Of a stretch of DNA of 64,000 nucleotides, positions 9,550-56,944 are shown in pieces. A program made the position numbers and the translations under genes. The notes beneath the pieces are model-generated. The model ran no database searches. It was not told the origin of the DNA and saw only the letters and a list, made by a program, of their open reading frames with translations. Source of the DNA: Variovorax paradoxus B4 (GTDB taxonomy: Bacteria; Pseudomonadota; Gammaproteobacteria; Burkholderiales; Burkholderiaceae_C); assembly GCF_000463015.1 (NCBI RefSeq), contig NC_022247.1, positions 3,286,001-3,350,000 of the forward strand. The letters run 5' to 3'. Numbering within the stretch: the first letter of the stretch is position 1; each line of letters begins with the position of its first letter.

Positions 9550-10925
9550 CGCTGCGCCTGAAGATCAACCTCATCGTCAGCCTGCTGACGCTGCTGTTCG
9601 TCGCGGCCATGCTCGCGCTGCAGATGCGCGCCATGCGCGAATCGGTGCACGAGGAAGTCGTGGCCGCCAATCGCGTGGCCGCGCAGTTGCTGAACCGCAC
9701 CGCCTGGCTCTATGCGGCCCAAGGCACGCCGGCCATGCTGTCGTTCCTGCAGGGCGTCGGGCGCGTGCGCTCCAACGACATCACGCTGCTCGACAACGAG
9801 GATCGCGTGCTGTACAGCTCGCCCAACTCGGTCTACAAGGCCGGCCGCGACGCGCCCGACTGGTTCGACCGCCTCGTCTCGCCACCGCCGTCGCAAATGT
9901 CGATTGCCTTTCCCGGTGGCAAGCTGATGGTGAGTTCCAACGCGTCGCGCGCCGTGCTCGACGCGTGGGACGACTTCGTGCTGCTGATGCTCAGCGCGCT
10001 GGGCCTGCTGGCGGTCGTCAATGCGGGCGTGTTCTGGCTCGTGGGCCGCGCGACGCGCCCGTTCGCGGACATCGTGCACGCGCTGAACCAGCTCGAGAGC
10101 GGGCGCTTCGACGTTTCGCTGCGCGCCCTGCCCGGCACCGAGGCGGCGGCCATCGGCGCCGCCTTCAACCGCATGGTCGGCATGCTGCAGCAGCACATCG
10201 AGACCGAGCGGCGCGCCGTGCGGGCCGAAAACCGACTGTCCGAAAGCCGCGAGCTGGGCCGCTGGGTCGATCAGAAGATCGAGAAGGAACGCCGCCTCAT
10301 CGCGCGCGAGCTGCACGACGAGCTGGGCCAGTCGGTCACCGCGATGCGCAGCATGGCCCTGTCGATCGCGCAGCGCGTGCAGACGCTCGATCCGCAGGCC
10401 GAGCAGGCGGCGCGGCTGATCGCCGAGGAATCGGGACGGCTCTACACGGCCATGCACGGCATGATCCCGCGCCTGACGCCGCTGGTGCTCGACAAGTTCG
10501 GGCTGGTGGCCGCGCTCGAAGACCTGGTCGAGCGAACCCGCAACAGCCATGGCGGCGTGGAGCTCGAGTGGCATCTGGACATCGAGCTCGATCGCCTGCG
10601 GCTCGACACCGACACCGCGCTGGTGCTGTACCGCGCCGCGCAGGAAGGCATCACCAACGCCCTGCGGCACGGCGAGGCACACCGGATCGTGCTGGCCCTG
10701 CAGGGCGACGAACAGACGGTGAAGCTCACGCTGACCGACGACGGGCGCGGCCTGCCCGGCCCTGACGCCGCCAGGGAAACCAGCACAGGGCACTATGGCC
10801 TGCGTTGGCTTGCCGAGCGCATCGACAGCCTGGGCGGCGACCTGCGCCTCGAACCCGCCGCGCCCAGCGGCGCCCAACTGACGGTGCGCCTGCCCTTGCC
10901 GGCGGCCGTCGCGGAGAACACATGA
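9546..10925 (+). CDS. NarL-type sensor histidine kinase, MoxY-like
   Basis: 459 residues. Two transmembrane helices (about 7-27 and 144-167) bracket a periplasmic sensor region of roughly 115 residues. A HAMP linker (170-225), a HisKA_3 dimerisation domain with phospho-acceptor His257 in ARELHDELGQS, and an HATPase domain with N-box QEGITNALRH (Asn371) and G-box DDGRGLPGP follow. It overlaps the response regulator start. Placed beside mxa and pqq genes it resembles MoxY, which controls methanol dehydrogenase expression in Paracoccus; that function is inferred from position. Confidence 0.85.
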   Translation: MTLRLKINLIVSLLTLLFVAAMLALQMRAMRESVHEEVVAANRVAAQLLNRTAWLYAAQGTPAMLSFLQGVGRVRSNDITLLDNEDRVLYSSPNSVYKAGRDAPDWFDRLVSPPPSQMSIAFPGGKLMVSSNASRAVLDAWDDFVLLMLSALGLLAVVNAGVFWLVGRATRPFADIVHALNQLESGRFDVSLRALPGTEAAAIGAAFNRMVGMLQQHIETERRAVRAENRLSESRELGRWVDQKIEKERRLIARELHDELGQSVTAMRSMALSIAQRVQTLDPQAEQAARLIAEESGRLYTAMHGMIPRLTPLVLDKFGLVAALEDLVERTRNSHGGVELEWHLDIELDRLRLDTDTALVLYRAAQEGITNALRHGEAHRIVLALQGDEQTVKLTLTDDGRGLPGPDAARETSTGHYGLRWLAERIDSLGGDLRLEPAAPSGAQLTVRLPLPAAVAENT

Positions 10926-11569
10926 CCCAGGCGATTCAGCCGATTCGAGTGATGCTGGTGGACGACCATGCGCTGGTGCGCATGGGCTTTCGCATGCTGC
11001 TGGCCGACGCGCAGATCGAGGTGGCGGCCGAGGCCGACACCGGCGAACAAGCCTGCCAGGACTACCCGCAAGTGCGGCCCGACGTGGTGGTGATGGACCT
11101 GTCGATGCCCGGCATGGGCGGGCTGGAAGCGCTGCGCCGCCTGCTGGCCCACGACCCCAAGGCGCGCGTGCTGGCGCTGTCGGCGCACGAGGACACGATC
11201 CATCCGCGCCGCGTGCTGCGCGCCGGCGCGCTCGGCTACCTGGCCAAGCGCAGTGCGCCCGATGCGCTGATTGCCGCGGTGAAGGCCGTGGCGCGCGGCG
11301 ACCGCTACATCGACGCCAACACCGCGCAGGCGCTGGCCACGGCGCAGATCGAGGGCGAGGCCAACCCGGCCGACCTGCTCAGCGAGCGCGAGTTCTCGGT
11401 CTTCATCCAGCTCGCGCGCGGCATGACGGTGGCGCAGATTGCCAGCACGCTGAACCTCTCGCTCAGCACGGTGGGCTCGCACCTGTACCGCGTCAAGCAG
11501 AAGCTGGGCGCCACCAACCAGGCGGAGCTCACGTGGGTGGCGCTGCGCTGGGGGCTGATCCAGGTCTAG
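10922..11569 (+). CDS. LuxR/NarL-family response regulator, MoxX-like
   Basis: 215 residues. The receiver domain (residues 8-125) has the acidic pair Asp14/Asp15, phospho-acceptor Asp59 in VVMDLSMPGMGG and Lys109. The C-terminal helix-turn-helix (about 150-212) contains ARGMTVAQIASTLNLSLSTV. It is the partner of the kinase encoded just upstream (ATGA overlap) and probably regulates mxa and/or pqq transcription. The gene ends 25 bases before a convergent HAD gene; a short GC hairpin (ccgcg/cgcgg near 11576-11594) lies in the gap. Confidence 0.85.
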   Translation: MTQAIQPIRVMLVDDHALVRMGFRMLLADAQIEVAAEADTGEQACQDYPQVRPDVVVMDLSMPGMGGLEALRRLLAHDPKARVLALSAHEDTIHPRRVLRAGALGYLAKRSAPDALIAAVKAVARGDRYIDANTAQALATAQIEGEANPADLLSEREFSVFIQLARGMTVAQIASTLNLSLSTVGSHLYRVKQKLGATNQAELTWVALRWGLIQV

Positions 11570-16572: not shown

Positions 16573-18258
16573 TCACGACGACGCCTCCTTGAAGCACTCC
16601 GCCGGCAGCAGGCGCCCGCCGTTGCAGCACTGGCACAGCTCGTCGTGGCCGATGGCGATGTGGTCGAAGTTGACCGACCCCTGCGCCGCAAGATGCCGGC
16701 GCAGCCGCTTCTCGATGCCGCGGTCGTAGTCCGGCGCGACGAAGTGCGTGCCGCCCACCGGCGCCGCCGTGACGCGGCCGGCGCGCGAGACCAGCACGCC
16801 GTCCTTGAACACGTATTCGGGCGTCGCGAACATGGCCTCGCGGTCGGCGTTCTCGCGGTACACCGCGATGTCGGCCGCGGCGCCCGCGCCCAGGTGGCCG
16901 CGGTCGCGCAGGCCCAGCAGCCGCGCGGGGCCGGCGCGGGTCATGATCGCGATCTCGTAGAGCGAGAGCTCGCGCGTGATCGAACGCAGCGCAGCCTGCG
17001 CCGCCACTTCGGGATGCAGCTTGGCGAGCTGTTCCTCGCGGAAGCTGCGGTCCATCAGCAGGCGGATCAGGTGCGGATAGCTCGTGAACGGGCCGCCGTT
17101 GGGATGGTCGGTGGTCAGCACCACGCGCCACGGATCGTCGACCAGCAGGAAGATCTCCAGCCCGATGACCCACTGCAGCGCATTCACGTAGCTCTGTTCG
17201 CGGTAGCGGAACGGCACCACGCCGCAGCCGGCCTCGCATTCGATGTCGGCGCCGATCCACTTGCGCGGATCGGCCAGGCCCGACTGTGCATGCTGGCGCA
17301 TGGTGTCGCCCGAGGCCGTGACGGTCTGGCCGAACATGATCTGGCCCACGTCGATGCTCACGTTCTTGTTCGCGTTCACCACCTCCGCGAGCTGCAGCGC
17401 GGCCGAGGAGAACTTCTTCGGCCCCTCGGTGCCATAGGCGTGGAACTGGATGTGCGTCAGGTGCCCGGGCAGTCCGTCGAGCGCGGCGATGGTGTCGAGC
17501 GTGGACTGGATGTTGCCGGCCACGCCCAGGTTGCTGCCGTGGATGTGCAGCGGATGCGGCACGCCGAGCTCGCGCAGCGCGCGCGCCAGCGCGTGCACCA
17601 CCTGCCGCGGCGTGACCTGCCAGTGCACGTGGTTCTCGTCGACGTCGAGCTTGCGCTGGTTGAACTTGAAGGCCGAGATGCCGCCGGGGTTCACCACCTT
17701 CACGCCCATCGCCTTGCTGGCGTTGATGGTCCAGCCCGCATAGTCGCGGATGCGCTCGAAATCCCAGCCCTCGGCCAGCATGCGCAGGAACAGCTCGTCG
17801 TTGCCGAGCATCACGTAGGCGCCGTGGTCGAGGATCGGCGTGTCGCCCATCTCCATGTGCGCATGGCGCGCGTTGCAGGCCATCATGGCCGGCTCGAAGG
17901 CCGCCGTGTAGCCCATCTCGACATAGCGGTAGCCGGTGGCCAGCGTGCCCGGCGTGCAGGTGCCGCATGAGGCGAGCTCGAGCACGTTGTCGGGCAGTGC
18001 AATGGGGTTCGCATTGGCGCGGTGGTCTTCGGGCAGCAGCATGCGCGCGAGATTCACCTTGCCGCCGCCGATGTGGGTGTGCATGTCGATGCCGCCGGCC
18101 ATCACGATGCAGCCGCGGATGTCGATCTCCTCGGTGGCGGCTTCGTTCGGCGCGAGGTCCACCATGCGGCCGTCGCGCAGGTACAGGTCGCGCAACTCGT
18201 CGCGGCCGTTCGCGGGATCGATGACGCGGCCGCCGCGCAAGCGTAGCGTCGTCGTCAT
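16573..18258 (-). CDS. fhcA: Formyltransferase/hydrolase complex subunit A (hydrolase)
   Basis: 561 residues, amidohydrolase-superfamily subunit that hydrolyses formyl-methylofuran to formate. The zinc-binding HxH is in MAGGIDMHTHIGGGKVNLAR, and further metal ligands lie in PLHIHGSNLG, THIQFHAYG and VVLTTDHPNGGPF. Length matches the FwdA/FhcA family. The C-terminal tail has a Cys-rich segment (ELCQCCNGGRLLPAEC). The start overlaps the fhcB stop by four bases. Confidence 0.96.
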   Translation of the reverse strand: MTTTLRLRGGRVIDPANGRDELRDLYLRDGRMVDLAPNEAATEEIDIRGCIVMAGGIDMHTHIGGGKVNLARMLLPEDHRANANPIALPDNVLELASCGTCTPGTLATGYRYVEMGYTAAFEPAMMACNARHAHMEMGDTPILDHGAYVMLGNDELFLRMLAEGWDFERIRDYAGWTINASKAMGVKVVNPGGISAFKFNQRKLDVDENHVHWQVTPRQVVHALARALRELGVPHPLHIHGSNLGVAGNIQSTLDTIAALDGLPGHLTHIQFHAYGTEGPKKFSSAALQLAEVVNANKNVSIDVGQIMFGQTVTASGDTMRQHAQSGLADPRKWIGADIECEAGCGVVPFRYREQSYVNALQWVIGLEIFLLVDDPWRVVLTTDHPNGGPFTSYPHLIRLLMDRSFREEQLAKLHPEVAAQAALRSITRELSLYEIAIMTRAGPARLLGLRDRGHLGAGAAADIAVYRENADREAMFATPEYVFKDGVLVSRAGRVTAAPVGGTHFVAPDYDRGIEKRLRRHLAAQGSVNFDHIAIGHDELCQCCNGGRLLPAECFKEASS

Positions 18259-19487
18259 TGCACGTGCCCCTTCTTCAGCGCCTGCACCGCCTGCGTCAGG
18301 CGCCGGACCACCTCGCCCACGCTCGGCAGCCCGTCTTCGTACACGGGCCGCAGCGGCAGCAGCACCGAACCGTCGGTGCGGAACAGATGGCCCGCGGAAC
18401 CGATGCCGGGAGTGGAGACGGGAATGAACACCAGCCCGTGCGCATCCTGCGGCAGCTGCATACCGGGATGGCCGAGCACGATGCGCGGTATGCCGGCCGG
18501 CGGCGGCGCGGGCTCGGGGCCATAGCTCGATACCCACAGCAGCGTGTCGACCGCGCCATCAACCAGCAGGCGCTGCGCATCGAAGCACAGCGGCTCATGC
18601 TCGAGGCCCAACGGCCCTGCGCGCGAACGCAGCGGCAGGCCCGAAAGCCAGGCGAACACCTGGTTCACGGTGGAAGCCCCGTCGCCACCGCCCAGCGGCA
18701 GCGAGGCCGCGCGCGTGCTGCGGTTGAGCGTGGCGACAATGCGCTGGATGGCCTCGACGATCAGCGCGCCCTGGGCCGGCAGCCGGCCCGATTCATACAC
18801 CAGCACCGCATAGCGGGCCGCCTTCAGGCGCGCCGAGAGCGCCGCCAGATCGGCCGGCACGCGGGCATCGTCTTTCGAGATGCGGCCCGCGACGAGTGCC
18901 GCGAGCAGGGCCACGGTGTCGAACAGGTCACCGTGCGGGGGCAGCGTCTCCACGGCCACGTCCTCCCGCTCGCCCACGCCGAAGCGGCGCAAGAGCTCCG
19001 GGTAATGCGCCGCCGGTTCCTCGGTCATGCAGACGATCAGGTCGGCCCGCGTCCTCACTTCCGCCAGCGTGGTGCTGAAGCCGCCACGGTCCTGCAATGC
19101 GCGCAGGCCATGCATCAGCGCCTGCCCCTGGGCCGGGTCGCAGATGGCGCCGGTTTCGCAAGCCAGCGCATAGAGGGCCCTCGCGCCAGCGACGTCGGTG
19201 CCGAGGCCGCCGAACAGGGGCTGCCGGCTGGCCGCGAGCAGCGAGGCCGCCGTGCCGAGCGCCGTGTCCAGGTCGCAGTCCTGGCCGTCGACCCGGGGCC
19301 GCCCCGCGCTGGCTGCGGCATCGAAGTTGGCCAGCGCATTGCGCGCGCGCGGGCAGTCGCTGCCCACGAGCTTCAGCGGCGTGCCGGGCGTCCCGAGCTC
19401 GACGCCGAAGGTGTCGCACAGCAAGGGGCAGAACGGACAGGTCCAGGGCGCATTGCCGGGAAGCGCGGCAGTGTCGGGTTCATTCAT
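18255..19487 (-). CDS. fhcB: Formyltransferase/hydrolase complex subunit B
   Basis: 410 residues, related to the molybdopterin-domain subunit B of archaeal formylmethanofuran dehydrogenase. In bacteria it is a structural subunit of Fhc without redox activity (known). The N-terminal CPFCPLLCD motif is retained. An ATG 30 bases upstream (19517) is also in frame, but a sigma-54-like sequence overlaps that segment, so I chose 19487. First gene of fhcBADC-fae-like-pabBC-HAD. Confidence 0.9.
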   Translation of the reverse strand: MNEPDTAALPGNAPWTCPFCPLLCDTFGVELGTPGTPLKLVGSDCPRARNALANFDAAASAGRPRVDGQDCDLDTALGTAASLLAASRQPLFGGLGTDVAGARALYALACETGAICDPAQGQALMHGLRALQDRGGFSTTLAEVRTRADLIVCMTEEPAAHYPELLRRFGVGEREDVAVETLPPHGDLFDTVALLAALVAGRISKDDARVPADLAALSARLKAARYAVLVYESGRLPAQGALIVEAIQRIVATLNRSTRAASLPLGGGDGASTVNQVFAWLSGLPLRSRAGPLGLEHEPLCFDAQRLLVDGAVDTLLWVSSYGPEPAPPPAGIPRIVLGHPGMQLPQDAHGLVFIPVSTPGIGSAGHLFRTDGSVLLPLRPVYEDGLPSVGEVVRRLTQAVQALKKGHVQ

Positions 19488-19501: not shown

Positions 19502-19516
19502 GCAAGCCATGTGCCA
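19502..19516 (-). promoter_or_regulatory. Candidate sigma-54 (-24/-12) promoter of fhcBADC
   Basis: On the minus strand the sequence reads TGGCACATGGCTTGC, against the consensus TGGCACG-N4-TTGC: one mismatch among the 11 defined positions, with GG and GC exactly 10 bases apart. The predicted transcription start is near 19490, only about three bases before the chosen fhcB ATG, so either the message is nearly leaderless or the match is fortuitous. The AcoR-type activator at 26580 is the natural candidate regulator. Half-sites TGTCTC and TGTCCC occur upstream on the same strand (19576-19571 and 19546-19541). Confidence 0.5.
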
Positions 19517-19718
19517 TTCACCCCGAGGCCGTCGCGCCTTGGGACAGGGCCTGGATGACACACACGATGTGAGACAGAGTGTTGCGCTTTTGGCGGTCAA
19601 TGCGTGCCGGCAGCGGCCGGCGGCAGTGCAAGCGAGCCCGCCGGTGGATGGCACGGTTCGTGTGTACAGCGGGCTGATGGCACGCCTCACCCACCCTCGT
19701 CGCACCGGCTTCGGCAGA

Positions 19719-26579: not shown

Positions 26580-28625
26580 TCAATCGGGTGGAGAGATTTC
26601 GATGTGAAGCTTGTGGAGTTTTCGGTACAAGGTGTTGCGGCTGACATCGAGCGCCTTGGCGACGTTGCTCACGTTCCAGCGATGCTGCTCGAGCATCTGC
26701 AGCAGCACCTGCCGCTCGTTGGCCTGGATCGGGTTGAGTTGCTTGATGGCGGGCGCGGCATTGGACGGCGCCGTGTCCGCCGCCGCATCGGCCGGATCGG
26801 ACACTGCAGCATGGGCCAGCGCGGGCAATGGCGATGACGCGGGCCGCGCGGCCAGCGAAGGCAAGTGCTCCCGCGTGATGGTCTTGCCGTCGGCCAGCGC
26901 GGCAGCGCTGCGCAGCACGTGGCGCAACTGCCTCAGGTTGCCAGGCCATGAATAAGCCATGAGCAGGCGCTCGGCCTCTTCGCCGAGCCGGCTGTCGCTG
27001 CCGCCTTCGTCCTTCAGCACGTCGTGGATGAGCTCGCGCTTGTCGCTGCGGTCGCGCAAGGGCGGTAGGTCCAGCTCGATGCCGGCGAGGCGGTAGTAGA
27101 GGTCTTCGCGGAAGCGTCCCTCGCGCACCAGGCTCGGCAGATGCTGGTGGCTCGCGCTCACGAGCTGGAAGTCCACCGGATGGGTTTCCTCGGTGCCCAG
27201 CGGCGTGACCTGGCGCTCGTCGAGCACGCGCAGCAGCCGGGCCTGCAGTTCCAGCGGCATGTCGGCGATTTCGTCGAGGAACAGCGTGCCGCCATCGGCC
27301 TGCAGGATCTTGCCGCGCCGCCCGCTACGCTGTGCACCGGTGAACGCGCCGGCCTTGTAGCCGAAGAGTTCGGATTCGATCAGCGTCTCGGGCAGGCTCG
27401 CGCAATTGACCGCGACGAAGGCGCCCTCTGCATGCGGACTGCTCTCGTGGATGGCGCGCGCGAACACTTCCTTGCCCGAGCCCGTCTCGCCGCACAGCAG
27501 CACCGGGGTTCGGCGCGCGACCACGCGCCGCGCGGTGTCCAGGTGCGCCACCAGCCGCGCGTCCTTGAAGGTGCGAACGCTGGGCGCACGCGCGGCCGCT
27601 GGCCGCAGCGGCGCACGGAAGGACTCGACACCCGCCTCTGCCGCCATCGAAGCCGTGCCTGCGCCGGCCACGCGCGCACGCGCCGGCGTGGCGGCATCGG
27701 AGGCCGGCCGCCGCGCCACCGCGAAGAAGCGCAGCGCCGCGTTGGCCCGGTAGGCCACCACTGGATGGAATGAAGAAGAAAGGCTGCGCTGGACGATGTC
27801 TTCGAGCGACGTCTGGAACAGGTCGTCGATGCGCTGCGTGCGGATCTCGTCCATCGACTGCAGGCCCAGCTGGAACAAAGCGCTGCGATTGGCCGCGAGA
27901 ATGCGCCCGTCGTCGCCGACCGCGAGCTTGCCCTCGTGCAGCGTGTAGACGAATTCGGGCCGGCTGTGGAAGTGCAGCGGATGCGCATTCGAGAAGCGCT
28001 TGTCGATGAGCCGGTTCTCGATCATGCGCGCCGTCATGCCCAGCAGCACCAGCACGTGCTGCTGCATGAGGCTGGAGCGGCTGGTCACGTCGAGCACGGC
28101 GATGATCTCGCCGGACGGATCGAACACCGGCACCGCCGAACACGTGAGCTGCGTGAAGTGGCTGAAGAAATGCTCTTCGCGCCGAACGGAGATCGGGTGC
28201 GCGGCGGCCAGGCAGGTGCCCATGCCGTTGGTGCCGGCTTCGGCCTCGCCCCACATGCCGCCGGCGCGCAGGCCCATGGGCTCGGCTTCGGCGGCGAACT
28301 CGGGCGAGGACACCATGTGCACGATCACGCCGTCGGTATCGGTCAGCACCACGGCGGACTCGGCATCCGCGAGCTGCTGGTAGAGCGTGGTCATCTCGTA
28401 GCGTGCGCACTCGATGACGTCGGCATGCTGGTTGCGGCGGCTCTGCAGCGCCGACGATGCAATGACCACCGGTTCGCGCGGTCGGCCGGGATCGAGCTGG
28501 TACTGGTTCAGGCAGCGGCTCCACGAGCGCGTGACCAGGTCGTTGCCCTCTTCGTGAAAGCCCCGTCTCACCACGTCGAGCACCCGGTCAGCGTGTCGAT
28601 CGCCTTGTCTCAGCGTCAATGTCAT
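26580..28625 (-). CDS. Sigma-54-dependent activator, AcoR type (GAF-PAS-AAA-Fis)
   Basis: 681 residues. An N-terminal GAF-like sensor (about 60-205, [17 protein letters not shown]) and a PAS-like segment (225-300) precede a sigma-54 AAA+ domain with Walker A GETGSGKE, the sigma-54 contact loop GAFTGA and [11 protein letters not shown] Fis-type helix-turn-helix ends the protein ([20 protein letters not shown]). AcoR-like activators respond to small alcohols, aldehydes or ketones. It is divergent from folB, whose upstream region has a -24/-12 promoter, and cotranscribed with dmrB, so it probably controls these C1 genes. The effector is unknown. Confidence 0.88.
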
Positions 28626-28740
28626 TGAAGTTCTCCGGCGCGTTCCATCATGTCTCGATCAGCCCATTGTTGTGCCTGCGGGCCTGCCGCGCACCGGGTG
28701 AAACACCAAGCACTGGCAATGCCGGAGCGGGTCTGTTCTC

Positions 28741-28755
28741 TGGCCTGCATTTTGC
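28741..28755 (+). promoter_or_regulatory. Candidate sigma-54 promoter of folB
   Basis: TGGCCTGCATTTTGC matches TGGCACG-N4-TTGC at nine of the 11 defined positions, with GG (28742-28743) and GC (28754-28755) exactly 10 bases apart. The predicted start of transcription is near 28767, leaving a leader of about 67 bases before folB. It lies in the 208-base divergent gap whose other side is the sigma-54 activator gene. A TGTCTC half-site is found about 90 bases upstream (28651). Confidence 0.6.
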
Positions 28756-28833
28756 GTTGATGAATCCTGCTGGGGTGGACTTGCATGCCGCCAGACACAC
28801 TTTCAAACACATTCGAATCACTGGAGACACCAC

Positions 28834-29361
28834 TTGAACACCAGCCCGCGTCCTTCCATCGCTCGCCTTTCCTCGAATGTCTCGCCGGCCTCGAACGCAT
28901 CGCCCGACGCGGCCGAGGCATCTGCGCCCATGGACCTGATCTTCATCGAGGGCTTCAGCGGCCAGACGGTGATCGGCATCCACGACTCCGAGCTGCATCA
29001 TCCGCAGCCACTGCTGATCAACGTGCACGCCGGAGTGCCCCGCGCACGCGCCTGCGACACCGACCGCATCGGCGACACCATCGACTACGGCATGGTGCGC
29101 GAACGGCTGGTGCGGCTCATGGCCGAGCACCGGCTGCAACTGCTCGAGGCCTTTGCAGAGGCCATTGCCGACATCCTCATCGACGAGTTCGGCGCCAGCT
29201 GGGTCCGCGTGAAGGTCGTGAAGCCGCGCAAGTTCGACGACGTGCAGGCCGTGGGCGTGCAGATCGAGCGCCACGCGCCCACGCATCGCGCTTCGAAGCT
29301 CGTGCACGGCGCCACCGTGCTGAACTTCCTTGCCAGTGGCATGGTCCCCGCCAAGCACTGA
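28834..29361 (+). CDS. folB: Dihydroneopterin aldolase-like protein (FolB/MptD role)
   Basis: 175 residues from a TTG with GGAG seven bases before it; an internal ATG at 28930 would remove a Ser/Ala-rich 32-residue extension. The FolB core runs from MDLIFIEGFSGQTVIGIHD through DTIDYGMVRERL (active-site Tyr) to VRVKVVKPRKFDDVQAVGV (catalytic-type Lys). It would cleave dihydroneopterin to 6-hydroxymethyldihydropterin, the pterin precursor of H4MPT and folate. The context (C1 cluster, sigma-54 promoter) suggests a dedicated methanopterin copy. Confidence 0.85.
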   Translation: MNTSPRPSIARLSSNVSPASNASPDAAEASAPMDLIFIEGFSGQTVIGIHDSELHHPQPLLINVHAGVPRARACDTDRIGDTIDYGMVRERLVRLMAEHRLQLLEAFAEAIADILIDEFGASWVRVKVVKPRKFDDVQAVGVQIERHAPTHRASKLVHGATVLNFLASGMVPAKH

Positions 29362-29438: not shown

Positions 29439-29951
29439 TCAGAGGTGGGCTGCGAACGGGTGTGCCGTCGTACCCTTCTTGTCCACCACTTCCGCTGCCG
29501 TCGGCGAGCCGGCCACGGCACGCTGGATGGCCTCGCGCGTGGCCTGGTAGTTGTAGTCCTGGATCTTCTTGTCGTCGTCGGCAAGCCAGTGGATGAACAC
29601 GCCGACGCAGATGAACAGGTTGTCCGCCTCCGCCATGGGGATGGTGCCATCCTCGACGCTGTCGGCCACCGCCAGCGCCACGGCGCGCTGCGCCGGCCCG
29701 AACATCTGCACCGCCTGCTTGGCGCCCTTGATGGTCACTTTGTTGAACATCACGGTGGCCGGCTTGGTCAGCAGGTTGGGAGCCACGACCGCGAGCAGCG
29801 AAGTGAAGCCGTCCTTGTTGTTCGTCAACGCGTTGGCGAAGGCGGTCTCGGCAGCGCTGCCGCGCGGTCCGATGATCAGGTCGATATGGGCTACTTCGTT
29901 GCCGTCGCCAACGAGCGATTCGCCCACCATCAGTCGATCGATTTTTGCCAT
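29439..29951 (-). CDS. fae: Formaldehyde-activating enzyme Fae
   Basis: 170 residues, canonical length. Fae condenses formaldehyde with H4MPT to methylene-H4MPT in the cytoplasm. The signature [18 protein letters not shown] (conserved His22), [17 protein letters not shown] and [20 protein letters not shown] are intact, unlike the paralogue at 14193. A strong ribosome site (GAGGAGA) precedes the ATG and directly follows a 28-codon reading frame. A terminator ends the gene. It lies last in the mptG-mtdB-ligase-mch-ligase-citG-like series but may also have its own promoter. Confidence 0.97.
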
Positions 29952-29967: not shown

Positions 29968-30054
29968 TCAGAGGTCCAAGGTGATTAGGGTCAATACGAC
30001 ACCGGTCAGGAAGACCAGCGCAAAGCCATGGGTATCACGATCCGTGCCATCCAT
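29968..30054 (-). CDS. Putative 28-residue membrane peptide upstream of fae
   Basis: A small frame, [10 protein letters not shown] followed by a hydrophobic stretch [16 protein letters not shown], ending LDL. It has its own ribosome site (GAGG six bases before the ATG), overlaps the 3' end of the citG-like gene by 20 bases, and its stop lies immediately before the fae ribosome site. A single transmembrane helix is predicted by eye. I know of no named family; it could be a real small protein, a translational coupling leader for fae, or chance. Confidence 0.4.
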
Positions 30055-30976
30055 TCGCCGCCTCGCGCGCGGGCGCCGCGCACGAGCGGATCCAGCCCGA
30101 AAGCAGCAGCGCCGCCACGGTGAAATCGGCGCTGGTCCCGGGGTTGACGCCTGCGGCCTTGAGAGAAAGGTCCCAGGCGGCAAAGCCGGGGTCGGCGTCG
30201 AGTGCCACGCCCGCGCCGGCGCGCTCCCGCCAGGCCTGCGCCGCCGTCATGACAGTCTGTGCCACGCGCTCGCCGTGTTTTCGAACAATGTGTGAATCAG
30301 GAAAGGCGCTCAGACAAGCCAGGTAAAGCCGTTGGACGAAAGCCACAGTGGCGGCGTCGGGCGGCGCATCGACATCGGCCGGCGCGCTGCCGCAGCCCGC
30401 CGGATGGATCGGTTCCTGGAACGCCAGCGCGAACAGGTCCGCGAATCCGTCGCGGTACTGGCGTGCGATGAGGTCGCGGTCTGCGGCCAGCGCCATGGCG
30501 GCACGCAGATCGACGCTGGGTGCATCGCGCACGTCTTCGGCCGGCGCTGTCCCCAGTCCGCCGGGATGCGCATGCGCAATGGCGCGATAGGCGGCGCGGG
30601 CATCGTCGATGTCGAGCGTGGCCAGCACGGACTCCACCGCCGTGCGCAAGGCCGCAGGGGTTCCGGCGCGGGGGTGCTGCTCCACCGCGAGCGCAATCGG
30701 CGCGCACAGCAGCAGGATGCCGAGGTTGGTGTTGCACCCGGCCACCGCCCAGGTGGCCTCCACCGCGGCCTCGATGCGCTCGCCCACGCGCAGGCCCGGC
30801 TCGAACAGCGCGCCGGCCGCAGCCTGTGCACTGGCAATGAACATCGAGGCCTGCATGCCGTGGCCGGGCGAGGCCTGGCTCACGTTGCCAGGCTTGCGCA
30901 CGGCAACGTCGAGCCAGCAGGCCCGCAGGAAGCAGGCCCGCGCGCGCTCCATGGCCGCCTGCCGCGCGTTCATCAT
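30035..30976 (-). CDS. CitG-like (triphosphoribosyl-dephospho-CoA synthase family) protein
   Basis: 313 residues, all-helical CitG/MdcB family. Family blocks are AVRKPGNVSQASPGHGM, GCNTNLGILLLCAPIAL and a C-terminal NPGTSADFTVAALLL. True CitG makes the prosthetic group of citrate lyase from ATP and dephospho-CoA; no citrate lyase genes are here. Homologues are common in H4MPT clusters, where a role in cofactor synthesis is suspected but unknown. The start shares one base with the stop of the upstream ligase gene. Confidence 0.8.
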   Translation of the reverse strand: MMNARQAAMERARACFLRACWLDVAVRKPGNVSQASPGHGMQASMFIASAQAAAGALFEPGLRVGERIEAAVEATWAVAGCNTNLGILLLCAPIALAVEQHPRAGTPAALRTAVESVLATLDIDDARAAYRAIAHAHPGGLGTAPAEDVRDAPSVDLRAAMALAADRDLIARQYRDGFADLFALAFQEPIHPAGCGSAPADVDAPPDAATVAFVQRLYLACLSAFPDSHIVRKHGERVAQTVMTAAQAWRERAGAGVALDADPGFAAWDLSLKAAGVNPGTSADFTVAALLLSGWIRSCAAPAREAANGWHGS

Positions 30977-35086: not shown

Positions 35087-36130
35087 TCAGCGCTTGCGCG
35101 GCTCGGCAGTACGGTCGCGCACCACCGCCCCGCGGTTGCGGCCCGAGACGATGCGCAGCTCGAGCCGCGGGTCGAGCTGCCCGGCGGCACGCGCAGCATC
35201 GACGAGCATTTCGGCCCGCACGTGCGAAGGCATGATCACGAAACTCGTGGGGCCCCATGAGCTCTGGCCGACGGCCGCATCATGCCCGCGGCTCGCATCC
35301 GCGAACCAGTGCATCAGCCGCCCGACTGCAGCGCTCGTGTAGATGCCGCCCTGCGCCGACGCGAAGTGCTCGCCGAGCAGCTGCTGCATGCGGTTGATGC
35401 CCGCGGCAAACGGTGCGAACTCCGCACGCGCGGCGCCGGGCAGAACCCGCATCAGAACCTGATGGCAGATCTCGGCCGCGCCCGCCTGCGGCAAGGGCGG
35501 CAAGGCCGCAATGGCCTTCTTCTCCGCGCCGCCCGACAGGCCCTTGTGCGCGGGGTCCTGGACCACGATGACGCGCCATTCCCCGGGAAACTCGATGCGC
35601 GACAGCAGCGGCGCAGGCAGCCCGTCCGGGCCCGGGCCGCCATCGAGGAGCAGGCCGCCGCTGTCGAAGCCCGCGATCCCGACCCCCGAGCGCAGGCCGC
35701 GGCCGAGCCAGTGCGCCAGCGTGCCCGTGTCCAGATCGAGCCCGTGCCATTCGGCAAAGGCCCGCCCGATCGCCGACGCCAGCTGCGTGCCCGAGCCGAA
35801 GCCCGCATGCGTCGGCAGCGCATGGCGCAGCCGCAGCGACAGCGGCGCATGGCGGCCGCTGCGCTGCTTCAGCACCGCCAGATAGTCCGCAGCGCGGGCC
35901 AGTTCCGCTTCGCCGGCCGGCGTATCGGCCGCCAGGTGGTCCGACGCGGACGCCGACAGCTCCACGTCGGTGGTGAAGCCGTCGATCACCAGCCCCAGGC
36001 TGCCGAACGCACGCCCGAGCGAGCCCGAGGGGTCCAGAAAGCCCAGGTGCAGGCGCCCGGGCGCGCTCACGCTCACCGTGCGAACGCTCTGGTCGAGCCT
36101 GGAAGCAAAGGCGAGGTCGGTGGAGCTCAT
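35087..36130 (-). CDS. mptG: Beta-ribofuranosylaminobenzene 5'-phosphate synthase
   Basis: 347 residues, GHMP-kinase-like fold. It condenses pABA with PRPP, the first committed step of H4MPT synthesis. Blocks are SVSAPGRLHLGFLDPSGSLG, LPTHAGFGSGTQLASAIGRA, GRGLRSGVGIAGFDSGG and VGQSSWGPTSFVI. In-frame ATGs also occur at 36160, 36175 and 36196; the sigma-54-like promoter at 36176-36191 predicts transcription from about 36165, which supports 36130 as the start. First gene of the run to fae. Confidence 0.93.
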   Translation of the reverse strand: MSSTDLAFASRLDQSVRTVSVSAPGRLHLGFLDPSGSLGRAFGSLGLVIDGFTTDVELSASASDHLAADTPAGEAELARAADYLAVLKQRSGRHAPLSLRLRHALPTHAGFGSGTQLASAIGRAFAEWHGLDLDTGTLAHWLGRGLRSGVGIAGFDSGGLLLDGGPGPDGLPAPLLSRIEFPGEWRVIVVQDPAHKGLSGGAEKKAIAALPPLPQAGAAEICHQVLMRVLPGAARAEFAPFAAGINRMQQLLGEHFASAQGGIYTSAAVGRLMHWFADASRGHDAAVGQSSWGPTSFVIMPSHVRAEMLVDAARAAGQLDPRLELRIVSGRNRGAVVRDRTAEPRKR

Positions 36131-36175: not shown

Positions 36176-36191
36176 AGCAAGGGCCGTTCCG
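36176..36191 (-). promoter_or_regulatory. Candidate sigma-54 promoter of mptG
   Basis: The minus strand reads CGGAACGGCCCTTGCT, against TGGCACG-N4-TTGCT: only the first T and the C after GG differ, and GG and GC are exactly 10 bases apart. The predicted start is near 36165, giving a leader of about 35 bases to the chosen mptG ATG. A perfect palindrome about 55 bases further upstream (36245) could bind the activator. Confidence 0.55.
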
Positions 36192-36244: not shown

Positions 36245-36262
36245 TGTCCCAGGAGCGGGACA
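36245..36262. promoter_or_regulatory. Palindrome TGTCCC-N6-GGGACA upstream of mptG
   Basis: A perfect 18-base inverted repeat, tgtcccaggagcgggaca, lies 55-72 bases upstream of the -24 element of the mptG promoter candidate. That is the usual place for an enhancer-type site of a sigma-54 activator. Related half-sites (TGTCYC) occur upstream of the folB and fhcB promoter candidates, but not as full palindromes. Confidence 0.4.
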
Positions 36263-36318
36263 ATGTGTCACGGCGTGCGGGGGCCGCGGCAGGGGTGGCT
36301 GCGCGGCGCAGCGCCCCA

Positions 36319-36770
36319 ATCGGGATAGGGGCCGGTCAGCGAAGACCGGTCCCCTCCCACACCACCCGGCATGCGGGTCCGCACCGAGCGGTTCGAGAAG
36401 TTGAGGTCAGCACAGGCAGGGAACTCCGAGCGCATCGAAGTACGCGATGGTGAGCACGCGGTTCAGCGCCATCGCGCTGTTGTGCCACCAGCGCCGAGCA
36501 TTGGCCGCAATCCGGGCCGCCACGTCGCGACTGGCACCCAGGGCGCGCAGTTCGCGGTACATGGTCGGGCCCCGACACCAGAACTTCAACTGGATGGCTC
36601 GCAAGCGGTGCCGCAACCATTCGTCCAGTCGCCGCCAGACCGAGGGCGTCTGTGCCAGTTGGAAGTACGCCTTCCACCCCGGCAGGAACGCTTGCAGGTC
36701 CTGTGCGATCTGGTTCATGCTGCGCCGGTGCGCCGCGTGGGCATCCCCAAGCCGGCGGCGCGCGTCAAGG
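36319..36770 (-). mobile_element. Group II intron remnant, 3' end with truncated maturase
   Basis: On the minus strand the maturase tail (36407-36770) is followed by GAACCGCTCGGTGCGGACCC, a GTGGTGTGGGAGGGG segment and a GACCGGTC...GACCGGCC hairpin ending CCTATCCCGAT. I read this as domains V and VI and the 3' splice end of a bacterial group II intron. Everything upstream (5' RNA domains, reverse-transcriptase domain) is missing, replaced by the IS element. The element is therefore dead. Confidence 0.7.
36407..36770 (-). pseudogene. Group II intron reverse transcriptase/maturase, C-terminal fragment
   Basis: About 120 residues of the maturase (X) domain remain: LPGWKAYFQLAQTPSVWRRL and LDEWLRHRLRAIQLKFW, then a helical tail ending VPCLC. 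The whole reverse-transcriptase domain is absent. Translation continues back into the IS end at 36771, so the frame that starts with an ATG at 36844 is a chimera and not a gene. Confidence 0.8.
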
Positions 36771-36785
36771 TAGTTGTCGCCTCTT

Positions 36786-37877
36786 TCATGCAGCCAGCGG
36801 CTGTATGTTGGGGTTCCTCGCATGTGCCTGAACGATGCAGTCACGTTCGGGGTTGAGAGTCACTGCGCCGATGGGCGACCAGTTGCGTGTAGGCCCTGAC
36901 CATCGTGCTGGGTTGAGCGCGCGGGCACGGGTGTACAGCGCGTGGCGAGCAGCGAGGATGGCTTGATCGTCGCCGTTGTGGCGTTGCGCAGGGCTGACGT
37001 AGCGAATGCCGCTGTGTCGATGGTCATGGTTGTACCAACGCACGAAGCCGGCCGCCCAGGAGCGCGCGTGGTCCAGGTCGGCGAAGCCCCTGGCGGGGAA
37101 CTCCGGGCGGTACTTGGCCGTTCTGAACAATGCTTCCGCATAGGCGTTGTCGTCGCTCACGCGAGGCCTGGAGTACGACGGCTTCACGCCCAGCCAGTTG
37201 AGCATCGCCAGCACTGTCGTGGCCTTCAATGTGGAGCCGTTGTCGCCATGCAGCACCGGCTTGGTGTCCAGGGTGGCGATGCCCTCGGCCAGCGCCGTGC
37301 GGCGCACCAGGTGCACGGCATGGTCGGAGTCGTCCGTGTCGTGAACCTCCCAGCCCACGATCTTGCGGCTGTACAGGTCCAGGATCAGGTAGAGATGGAA
37401 CCAGCGCCCGAGCACCTGCGCGGGCAGGTACGTCATGTCCCAGCACCAGACTTGTCGCGGTGTCTCGGCGATGTGCGTCGTGGGAGGGCGCACGACCCTG
37501 GGCGCCTTGGCACGACCGCGATGGGCGCTCTGCCCGTGCGCGCGCAGGACGCGACTGAAGCTGGACTCGCTGGCCAAGTACACACCCTCATCGGCCAGCA
37601 TGGGCACGATGCGCGCCGGCGGCACGGCAGCGAACCGCGGCTCATTGGCCACCGCCAGCAGCTGTGCGCGCTCTTCCTGGCTCAGGGCATGGCCGGGTAT
37701 GGGGCGCACGGCCTGCGGCCTGCCATCGCCCGCGGTGAGGCCTTCATGAGCCTGCCAACGCTGCAGGGTGCGCACGTCGATGCCGGCGCTCTCGCAGGCC
37801 AGGCGCAGCCGCGCGCCGGCGGTGTGAGCCTTGGAGATGTTCTGGGCCACGATCCGGCGATCTTCGAGGCCGATCAT
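36786..37877 (-). CDS. IS3-family transposase OrfB (DDE integrase)
   Basis: 363 residues. A helix-turn-helix-like N-terminus (IDVRTLQRWQAHEG) precedes an rve integrase core with the catalytic triad: Asp in WCWDMTYLP, Asp in LHGDNGS and Glu in DDNAYAEALFRTAKY. It looks intact. The ATG overlaps the orfA stop (ATGA), suggesting coupled translation instead of the -1 frameshift common in IS3 elements, although a fusion product cannot be excluded. Confidence 0.9.
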   Translation of the reverse strand: MIGLEDRRIVAQNISKAHTAGARLRLACESAGIDVRTLQRWQAHEGLTAGDGRPQAVRPIPGHALSQEERAQLLAVANEPRFAAVPPARIVPMLADEGVYLASESSFSRVLRAHGQSAHRGRAKAPRVVRPPTTHIAETPRQVWCWDMTYLPAQVLGRWFHLYLILDLYSRKIVGWEVHDTDDSDHAVHLVRRTALAEGIATLDTKPVLHGDNGSTLKATTVLAMLNWLGVKPSYSRPRVSDDNAYAEALFRTAKYRPEFPARGFADLDHARSWAAGFVRWYNHDHRHSGIRYVSPAQRHNGDDQAILAARHALYTRARALNPARWSGPTRNWSPIGAVTLNPERDCIVQAHARNPNIQPLAA

Positions 37878-38353
37878 TCGTCCCCTCCCTTGTGGAAGAT
37901 CGCCTCGAGATTTTTTGAGAGTACCAACAGGGCTGCGGTCTCGGCCAGCGCCCGGTCCTTGCGCAGCAGGTCGCGCTCGAGCTCCTTGATGCGTTTGCGG
38001 TCGGCCCGCGTGGCCTGCGGGCTGGCACGGGCCTCTTCAGGCTGTGCCAGCGCGGCAGTGGCGCTCGATCGCCACTTGTCCAGATCGGCTGGGTATACCC
38101 CGTGCTCGCGGCACCAGGCGCTCTTGGCCGCCTCGGGCATCGCCGCCGTCGTGATCACCGCCTCAAGCCGCGCGCGCGCAGTCCATGCCCGCCCTCGGGC
38201 GGGCATGGACTGCGCATCCTCGCGCCAACGCTCCAGTGTCTGCACTCCAATGCCAACCTCGCGCGCCACTACCTCCAGCGCCGAACTCTCCGGCGGCAGC
38301 AACCTTGCTACCGCCCGGTCCTTGAATGCTTGTCCGTATCGAGCCACTCTCAT
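37874..38353 (-). CDS. IS3-family transposase OrfA
   Basis: 159 residues. A helix-turn-helix domain (ALEVVAREVGIGVQTLERWR) and a C-terminal coiled coil/leucine-zipper region (RIKELERDLLRKDRALAETA) are as expected for the DNA-binding OrfA of IS3 elements. It lies 47 bases inside the right inverted repeat. Confidence 0.88.
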   Translation of the reverse strand: MRVARYGQAFKDRAVARLLPPESSALEVVAREVGIGVQTLERWREDAQSMPARGRAWTARARLEAVITTAAMPEAAKSAWCREHGVYPADLDKWRSSATAALAQPEEARASPQATRADRKRIKELERDLLRKDRALAETAALLVLSKNLEAIFHKGGDE

Positions 38354-38717: not shown

Positions 38718-38810
38718 TGGCGGAACCGGAGGGATTCGAACCCTCGATGAGGCTCTACACCCCATACTCCCTTAGCAGGGGAGCACCTTCGGCCACTCGG
38801 TCACAGTTCC
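38718..38810 (-). tRNA. tRNA-Ser (anticodon GCU)
   Basis: A 90-nt type II tRNA plus encoded CCA. The acceptor stem GGAACTG pairs with CGGTTCC (with G-U pairs). The anticodon loop is CTGCTAA, giving GCU for AGC/AGU codons. A long variable arm and the T-arm GGGTTCGAATCCC are present. The gene lies between the IS/intron debris and lysC, a typical island-insertion position. Confidence 0.96.
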
Positions 38811-56759: not shown

Positions 56760-56782
56760 GGCCCTGCGCTACACTTCACCCC

Positions 56783-56898
56783 GTACGCGACTGGCGATAG
56801 GCGCAGCACCCCCCACGGTGCCACGCGCTGACGTGGAATACCACTGGGAAGCGTACCGCCTGGCATCCATACAGGCGTTCAGCCGTTCGCCTGGGCAG
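56783..56898 (+). ncRNA. ZTP riboswitch (pfl motif) upstream of glyA
   Basis: The leader has the pfl/ZTP pattern. gtacgc (56783-56788) pairs with gcgtac (56851-56856), with GACTGGCG just inside the first strand. An internal GTGG-AATA-CCAC hairpin (56833-56844) is followed by CTGGGAAGCG. The 3' domain ends in the diagnostic CGCCTGGGCA (56889-56898). A short hairpin CCTTGTT...AACAAGG (56900-56922) sits between it and the glyA ribosome site. ZTP/ZMP signals low 10-formyl-folate; glyA is a known target of this class. Confidence 0.85.
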
Positions 56899-56944
56899 CC
56901 CTTGTTTGGTTGAAGAACAAGGACCTCGTCTTCAAAGGACTGCC

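Follow-up and report, generated by a model that had tools for sequence, protein, structure and literature searches.

How are the genes of methanopterin-linked formaldehyde oxidation controlled outside the model methylotrophs? We address this question at a locus of Variovorax paradoxus B4, in a window of 64,000 nucleotides (nt) corresponding to positions 3286001–3350000 of contig 2 (NC_022247.1) of a 7.15-Mb, two-contig genome. A methanopterin/methylofuran cluster spans 14.8–36.2 kb of the window. It contains fhcCDAB, HisA-like and MfnB-like genes, a dihydropteroate-synthase-like gene (dhps, which serves as the pathway marker), a flavoprotein gene, an activator gene, folB (divergent from the activator gene), fae, a citG-like gene, an mptN-like gene, an ATP-grasp gene, and mptG (Table 1). 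We propose that the activator is a dedicated sigma-54 activator of the methanopterin/methylofuran formaldehyde pathway, a reading to which we give a probability of about 0.8.

The activator consists of a GAF domain (residues 72–206), a sigma-54 AAA+ domain (residues 355–518; PF00158, Sigma54_activat, 214 bits), and a C-terminal Fis-type helix-turn-helix (HTH_8, residues 637–672); the AAA lid is also matched in the profile search. Like other sigma-54 enhancer-binding proteins, it has a Walker A motif (GETGSGKE, residue 379) and a GAFTGA loop (residue 426), as well as GGTLFLDEI at residue 445. GAFTGA is kept in 39/39 aligned homologues. These matches bear out the first-pass annotation, which had described an AcoR-type activator with the three domains, divergent from folB, and the divergent reading frame indeed carries a FolB domain. 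AcoR is a name that we assign by assumption rather than from a model match. AcoR-type activators share with the resident protein the domain order, GAFTGA, a GAF motif with LTCSA, and the Fis-type helix-turn-helix. Six paralogues differ in having GTA where orthologues of the resident activator have GTNGMGTC (Cys138), and the resident activator differs in having methanopterin genes as predicted targets. DhaR, PrdR, NifA, NorR, and PrpR have the AAA+ and helix-turn-helix regions in common with the activator (237–285 bits) and fall below their cut-offs, e.g. 281 of 551 for DhaR and 285 of 795 for PrdR; among the NCBIfam equivalogs shown, none reaches its curated cut-off. Solved structures give 35 matching sequences, all to the AAA+/helix-turn-helix part and none to the sensory half. 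The genome also encodes rpoN.

The gap between the activator gene and folB contains TGGCCTGCATTTTGC, with GG and GC spaced by exactly 10 nt as the first-pass annotation had claimed. The two further sequences of this kind that it had mentioned, ahead of fhcB and mptG, are taken to be TGGCACATGGCTTGC and CGGAACGGCCCTTGC. The folB and fhcB sites in the window have GG-N10-GC with full TGGC and TTGC boxes; the first T of the -24 box is G in some relatives. The mptG site has GG-N10-GC and TTGC, with a -24 box of CGGAAC rather than TGGCAC (TGGAAY in genera g53 and g59). Since TGGC-N7-TTGC occurs 627 times in the 7.15-Mb genome and comparable scores are reached in coding DNA, the letters alone mean little, and we discarded the genome-wide count as evidence. 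The weight of the promoter evidence lies in conservation. Orthologues of the activator are found in 26 of 99 other sampled genomes; between them and the paralogues, scores drop from 1034 to 440 bits. The comparison covered the clusters of these 26 Variovorax genomes together with 33 additional loci of the family; L118, one of the 33, is an extra activator copy located away from the cluster. Among Variovorax loci, 27/27 retain the folB site, even six distant ones with flanks that cannot be aligned. Wherever the activator is present, the best site reaches at least 7.5 in 59/59 folB, 52/52 mptG, and 37/37 fhcB regions (20, 16, and 10 genera, respectively) and at least 9 in 58/59, 51/52, and 36/37. 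On the opposite strand, 13, 10, and 11 regions reach 7.5. In five loci (L103, L104, L114, L116, and L117) the mptG block is inverted and lies 20–93 nt behind folB. There, mptG has no site of its own (best scores 1.7–8.8, the highest 186 nt upstream and within folB), and the folB promoter is kept.

A second element is shared by fhcB and mptG. The top dyad at mptG is ACA-N3-TGT in 22/25 representatives (0.5 expected), and a separate count for fhcB gives 15/15 (0.9 expected). Over all loci, ACA-N3-TGT is present in 48/52 mptG and 37/37 fhcB regions. Its distances to the -24 box cluster at about 54, 65, 76, 87, and 98 nt, corresponding to a period of 10.8 bp (R=0.70; 44 distances below 130 nt from 28 representatives; 0/5000 in each of two nulls). 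Longer distances, from 130 nt upward (171 and 151 nt at mptG; 171 and 138 nt at fhcB), were left out. With only the nearest site and one locus per genus (two for Variovorax), the phasing persists (n=23, R=0.66; 3 and 7 of 20000 in two nulls). Helical phasing is established for enhancer-binding proteins, and the phased spacing is what looped activator contact would produce. We also scanned 15 whole genomes for ACA[C/G]NNTGT combined with GGNAY-N5-TTGC; a wider gap was scanned for ACAC only. There are 35 matches, compared with 15 (6, 8, and 1) in a backward-read control. Of these, 23 fall at fhcB or mptG, with one fhcB entered twice; they come exclusively from the 12 genomes that have the activator, and unlinked copies are among them. 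The home genome has four matches, namely fhcB, mptG, and two others, one of them inside a long open reading frame.

Two further observations concern this element. In L054, a strong ACA-N3-TGT site (21.2) lies at 10916–11119, after folB and before genes of molybdenum aldehyde-oxidase type; the activator and folB of that genome lie away from the cluster, and no -24/-12 partner scoring at least 9 is within reach of the site. In L106, L107, and L108, mptG is divergent from another AcoR-type activator gene, which has its own -24/-12-like site (13.5–15.0), and an ACA-N3-TGT site lies in between.

folB is organized differently. From -500 to +350, only four of 30 representatives have an ACA-N3-TGT-like score of at least 11 (L106, L113, and L115 upstream; L117 downstream, at 11.4), and a general upstream site of this type at folB was rejected for that reason. 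A palindrome, CCGGGTGAAACACC, is located upstream of the folB promoter at about 28694–28707. GGGTGAAACACCC-like palindromes occur within 110 nt of the -24 box in 12/22 representatives (null mean 0.9, maximum 5) and could be a folB-specific activator site. The second activator copy, in L118, has no ACA-N3-TGT scoring at least 10.

At fhcB, the promoter element is fixed to the start codon. The distance from the -12 C to an in-frame ATG is 13–15 nt in 39/41 loci (the 37 that have an fhcB region and 4 more); the exceptions are L115, with 18 nt, and L116, without such an ATG. In most loci this ATG is the sole start codon before the conserved CPFC motif. Transcription from sigma-54 promoters usually starts 12 nt after the -12 C. 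A start there would leave a 5' leader of about 2–4 nt, and the fhcB mRNA is therefore predicted to be leaderless or nearly so. In many species the fhcB reading frame extends through the element; its being coding sequence is ruled out by in-frame stops before the ATG in L052, L053, and L055.

fae has a candidate promoter of less regular form. A [TC]GGCAYR box, a loose pattern, is present within 135 nt of fae in 56/56 loci (77–112 nt in representatives), and fae upstream regions reach a score of 9 in 54/56. The element is a likely candidate for a sigma-54 promoter, with a -12 half that is non-canonical in most representatives. Upstream of it, two ACA-N3-TGT sites lie within the codons of citG and are likely bound by the activator. 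Site 1 is present in 55/56 loci and site 2 in 52/56 (missing in L104, L115, L116, and L117). The distances from these sites to the fae -24 box are phased (n=20, R=0.62; 36 of 20000), although part of the variation comes in steps of three nt, as expected of coding sequence. In other families, two loci whose activators are 50–54% identical keep the fae -24 box, and one of them (L282) also keeps site 1.

A reading of the citG site as a plain coding motif did not survive a count of codon columns on the correct strand. Among 4131 codon columns of 14 cluster genes (up to 21 representatives of 19 genera), four end in A or T without exception. All four are in citG and none in the other 13 genes; a companion count finds the same four (mean 0.14). 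The columns are GAT; TCA/GCA; ATT; and ACT/AGT/GCT/ATT/AAT. In the fourth, the amino acid varies (T/S/A/I/N) and the third-base T is constant. Six citG columns are at least 80% A/T-ending, and all six are G/C-ending in the activator-less genome G104, whose citG keeps DSHI while third bases change. In the other cluster genes, 8/8 such columns present in G104 remain A/T-ending (Fisher p=0.0003, columns treated as independent). Codon-embedded sites that are released in G104 constitute a clean natural experiment on regulatory constraint within coding sequence. In the citG–fae gap, there is also a conserved stem-loop of six pairs (about 29998–30021, minus strand; GCGCTGG...CCAGTGT type); pairing is possible in 44–47 of 49 distinct sequences and involves several types of pair, and the stem-loop may serve in RNA processing or attenuation.

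The activator and the pathway occur together. Of 299 genomes sampled in the family, 33 have the activator (E value of 1e-160 or better) and 35 have dhps, and all 33 are within the 35. Marker-positive G203 has a 75%-identical activator fragment at a contig end, beside dhps. G104, complete and marker-positive, has activator paralogues only (best 385 bits). Its cluster is otherwise syntenic with the activator missing; nothing remains of the mptG site (1.3, p=0.89), fhcB has neither the promoter near the ATG nor the upstream site, and the fae element is also gone. Copies unlinked to the activator keep their sites: fhcB lies 195 kb from the activator in G281 and on another contig in G343, and in G065 the activator and folB are separated from mptG by about 47 kb and from fhcB by about 72 kb. 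Clusters of other families without the activator (L273, L278, and L279; seven folB, mptG, or fhcB regions) score 0.7–7.3 (p 0.08–0.86). In L273, ACA-N3-TGT occurs at both mptG and fhcB, and a -24/-12 site is absent. A distant cluster with an activator, L268, has sites at folB (12.3) and fhcB (13.3). Activator homologues with 43–50% identity also lie beside the flavoprotein gene and dhps in L125, L127, and L138, on contigs labelled Gammaproteobacteria, Thiogranum, and Rhodanobacteraceae, labels of a kind that can be wrong. A 37%-identical relative lies beside folB on the other strand in L270, from an order-level sample of 300 genomes in which dhps is present in 32.

The first-pass annotation had suggested that sigma-54 and this activator control the methanopterin genes as a regulon. 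That suggestion is supported by the conservation of the sites, by the finding of activator and pathway in the same genomes, and by G104, where activator, promoters, and upstream sites are missing together. The sites kept at unlinked fhcB and mptG copies support it too, as does the phased upstream site that two of the three promoters share. fae and the upstream sites had not figured in the first-pass annotation, and the aldehyde or alcohol sensing that it attributed to the activator is a guess. The sequences show the domains, the conserved promoter elements, the shared phased sites, the codon constraint, and the joint absence of these elements in G104; binding, transcription starts, and an inducer are inferred as follows. 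A C1-related signal would be received in the N-terminal GAF half. The activator would bind the ACA-N3-TGT palindromes, hexamerize, and remodel the sigma-54 polymerase waiting at the -24/-12 promoters. The units driven would be fhcB (fhcBADC), mptG (the block from mptG to fae), and probably fae itself through the sites in citG. folB, which has a conserved -24/-12 promoter without the palindrome, would probably rely on a different site or need no strong one. A fuller version, in which a formaldehyde-sensing activator with reactive Cys138 and Cys162 runs the whole pathway from four promoters, with fae under tandem enhancers embedded in synonymous codons of citG and fhcB leaderless, is tentative and, taken as a whole, rather doubtful.

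Several observations weigh against a dedicated activator. In the order-level sample, the activator is found beside dhps in only 11 of the 32 marker genomes (10 by position plus L268), and 12 of 13 inspected loci among the remaining 21 have no activator within 12–20 kb. G104 is the sole clean loss of the activator; a weak GG-N10-GC match survives at its folB (9.7, p=0.06), and 205 nt before its fae, elsewhere than the conserved element, there is a match scoring 11.2 (p=0.02). L282, a distant cluster with a 54% identical activator, has no folB site (4.6, p=0.56). The exact ACA-N3-TGT is lacking at mptG in L045, L105, L110, and L112 and is present at folB in only 3/59 loci. In the pattern scan, the ACAG variant gives two matches versus eight in the control, and we dropped it. 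The -12 half of the fae element lacks GC in most representatives (GTGAT or GTGTT; TGCA in g75 and g133). Scores of at least 9 are also reached before dhps in 35/57 loci (51/57 on its opposite strand) and upstream of mfnB (13/57), citG (6/56), hisA (5/38), and mptN (6/28), and 44/57 mfnB regions reach 7.5. The motif score is not diagnostic by itself.

Alternatively, sigma-54 might play no part at all, and the sites might owe their conservation to coding constraint, sigma-70, or a repressor. The rise of motif scores in coding DNA, the in-frame fhcB element of many species, and the conserved stretch encoded by the citG sites fit such an explanation. It would have to accommodate the stops between the fhcB element and its ATG, the citG column that keeps T while the amino acid changes, the altered third bases under an unaltered DSHI in G104, and the phased spacing at fhcB and mptG, and we regard it as highly improbable. 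Somewhat less improbable, and still unlikely, is that the promoters depend on sigma-54 while ACA-N3-TGT is bound by another AcoR-type activator, with the resident protein serving only folB through another site. This would agree with the near absence of ACA-N3-TGT and the frequent GGGTGAAACACCC-like palindrome at folB, with the second AcoR-type gene and its own -24/-12 site near the shared ACA-N3-TGT in L106–L108, and with the loss of the mptG promoter where the mptG block sits behind folB. G104 argues otherwise: without the resident gene, it loses the mptG, fhcB, and fae sites even though AcoR-type paralogues remain. So does the 48%-identical homologue L238. Its genome has no marker-gene match, and immediately upstream of the homologue there is a -24/-12 element preceded, at 73 nt, by ACA-N3-TGT.

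A different inducer for the same regulon, e.g. a longer alcohol or a redox or nutrient signal, is compatible with a dedicated activator, and its likelihood is counted apart from those of the competing explanations. We consider it a real possibility, if not the one we favor. Excerpts of a published report describe BmoR, an alcohol-responsive sigma-54 activator, as answering butanol (PMC8899819). The targets found here are formaldehyde-pathway genes, which points instead to a C1 compound, as does the setting of the second activator copy in G343 (L118, contig 204; 59% identical in the tblastn alignment), next to genes for AmtB, a type III glutamine synthetase, and glutamate-synthase-like proteins. 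We take these neighbors to be an N-methylglutamate (mgs) set for methylamine. Cys38, Cys138, and Cys162 are each kept in the 39 aligned homologues with at most one exception. LTCSA or LTCSS with Cys162 is also found in six paralogues (L028, L029, L030, L319, L320, and the L106 gene divergent from mptG), and Cys138 is Ala (GTA) in the same six. Beside the distant homologue L233, a neighbor has as its best named match, below the cut-off, a propeller associated with pyrroloquinoline quinone (PQQ) catabolism. Based on the cysteines and the gene neighbors in L118 and L233, we guess, at even odds, that the inducer is formaldehyde or a C1 precursor.

The mechanism is known, since sigma-54 activators with phased upstream sites have been described before; it is the regulon that looks new. 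Two features are unusual, namely the sites embedded in codons and the promoter fixed to a start codon. Among the matches listed from open-licence literature (titles and the starts of abstracts; subscription papers lie outside), none reports sigma-54 control of methanopterin genes, and no account was found there of how methanopterin-linked formaldehyde oxidation is turned on outside the model methylotrophs. By description rather than by sequence, BmoR resembles the resident activator in responding to a small molecule and acting from an upstream site on a -24/-12 promoter; in the excerpts, it differs in driving the butane monooxygenase promoter from a site 193 bp upstream, and activity is reported even without the putative site (PMC8899819). 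Such site-less activation may apply to folB. For Methylosinus sporium 5, which has the methanopterin pathway in common, the part of the report that we cite describes an RpoN motif, YGGCR-N6-TTGC, in the genome and ties RpoN sites to nitrogen metabolism, not to methanopterin genes (PMC12403871). According to partial texts, Variovorax paradoxus 351 makes methylofuran and has a lanthanide-dependent methanol dehydrogenase (PMC8141765), and xoxF is found in 28/34 Comamonadaceae genera (PMC7065363). A dedicated sigma-54 activator would be a concrete handle on the pathway, would predict when rhizosphere Comamonadaceae oxidize formaldehyde, and could be the starting point for a C1 biosensor. Because the promoter-to-ATG distance is fixed, sigma-54-driven leaderless translation becomes testable.

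Table 1 Genes, promoter elements, and upstream sites of the cluster, in window positions
Feature	Position	Strand	Remark
Activator, sigma-54 enhancer-binding protein	26580..28625	minus	681 residues; GAF, AAA+ with GAFTGA, Fis-type helix-turn-helix
folB (dihydroneopterin aldolase family)	28834..29361	plus	N-terminal extension; FolB domain, core from about 28931
fhcB	18255..19487	minus	predicted leaderless or near-leaderless start at 19487
mptG (beta-RFAP synthase family)	35087..36130	minus	heads block running to fae
fae (formaldehyde-activating enzyme)	29439..29951	minus	
citG-like gene (PF01874)	30035..30976	minus	host of two intragenic sites
folB -24/-12 promoter, TGGCCTGCATTTTGC	28741..28755	plus	
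fhcB -24/-12 promoter, TGGCACATGGCTTGC	19502..19516	minus	14 nt from -12 C to fhcB ATG
mptG -24/-12 promoter, CGGAACGGCCCTTGC	36177..36191	minus	
fhcB upstream sites, two ACA-N3-TGT	19562..19582	minus	19582–19574 and 19570–19562
mptG upstream site, ACA-N3-TGT, ACACATTGT	36260..36268	minus	
fae candidate -24/-12 element, TGGCACGGATCGTGA	30035..30049	minus	full -24 box, non-canonical -12 (GTGAT)
citG intragenic ACA-N3-TGT site 1, ACACATTGT	30285..30293	minus	33 nt upstream of site 2
citG intragenic ACA-N3-TGT site 2, ACAGACTGT	30252..30260	minus	211 nt before fae -24

Upstream of the mptG block, the window contains a group II intron maturase fragment (below the cut-off) and IS3 transposase genes (36407–38353 and 38718–38810, minus strand), adjoining a tRNA-Ser gene; farther upstream of mptG, the sequence differs from that of close relatives. 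A tRNA-Ala call by ARAGORN inside fhcB (19121–19219, plus strand) has no Rfam match at the gathering score and is probably false. Elsewhere in the window, a ZMP/ZTP riboswitch match (56777–56903, plus strand; 54.8 bits, above the Rfam gathering score) lies directly before the open reading frame at 56906.

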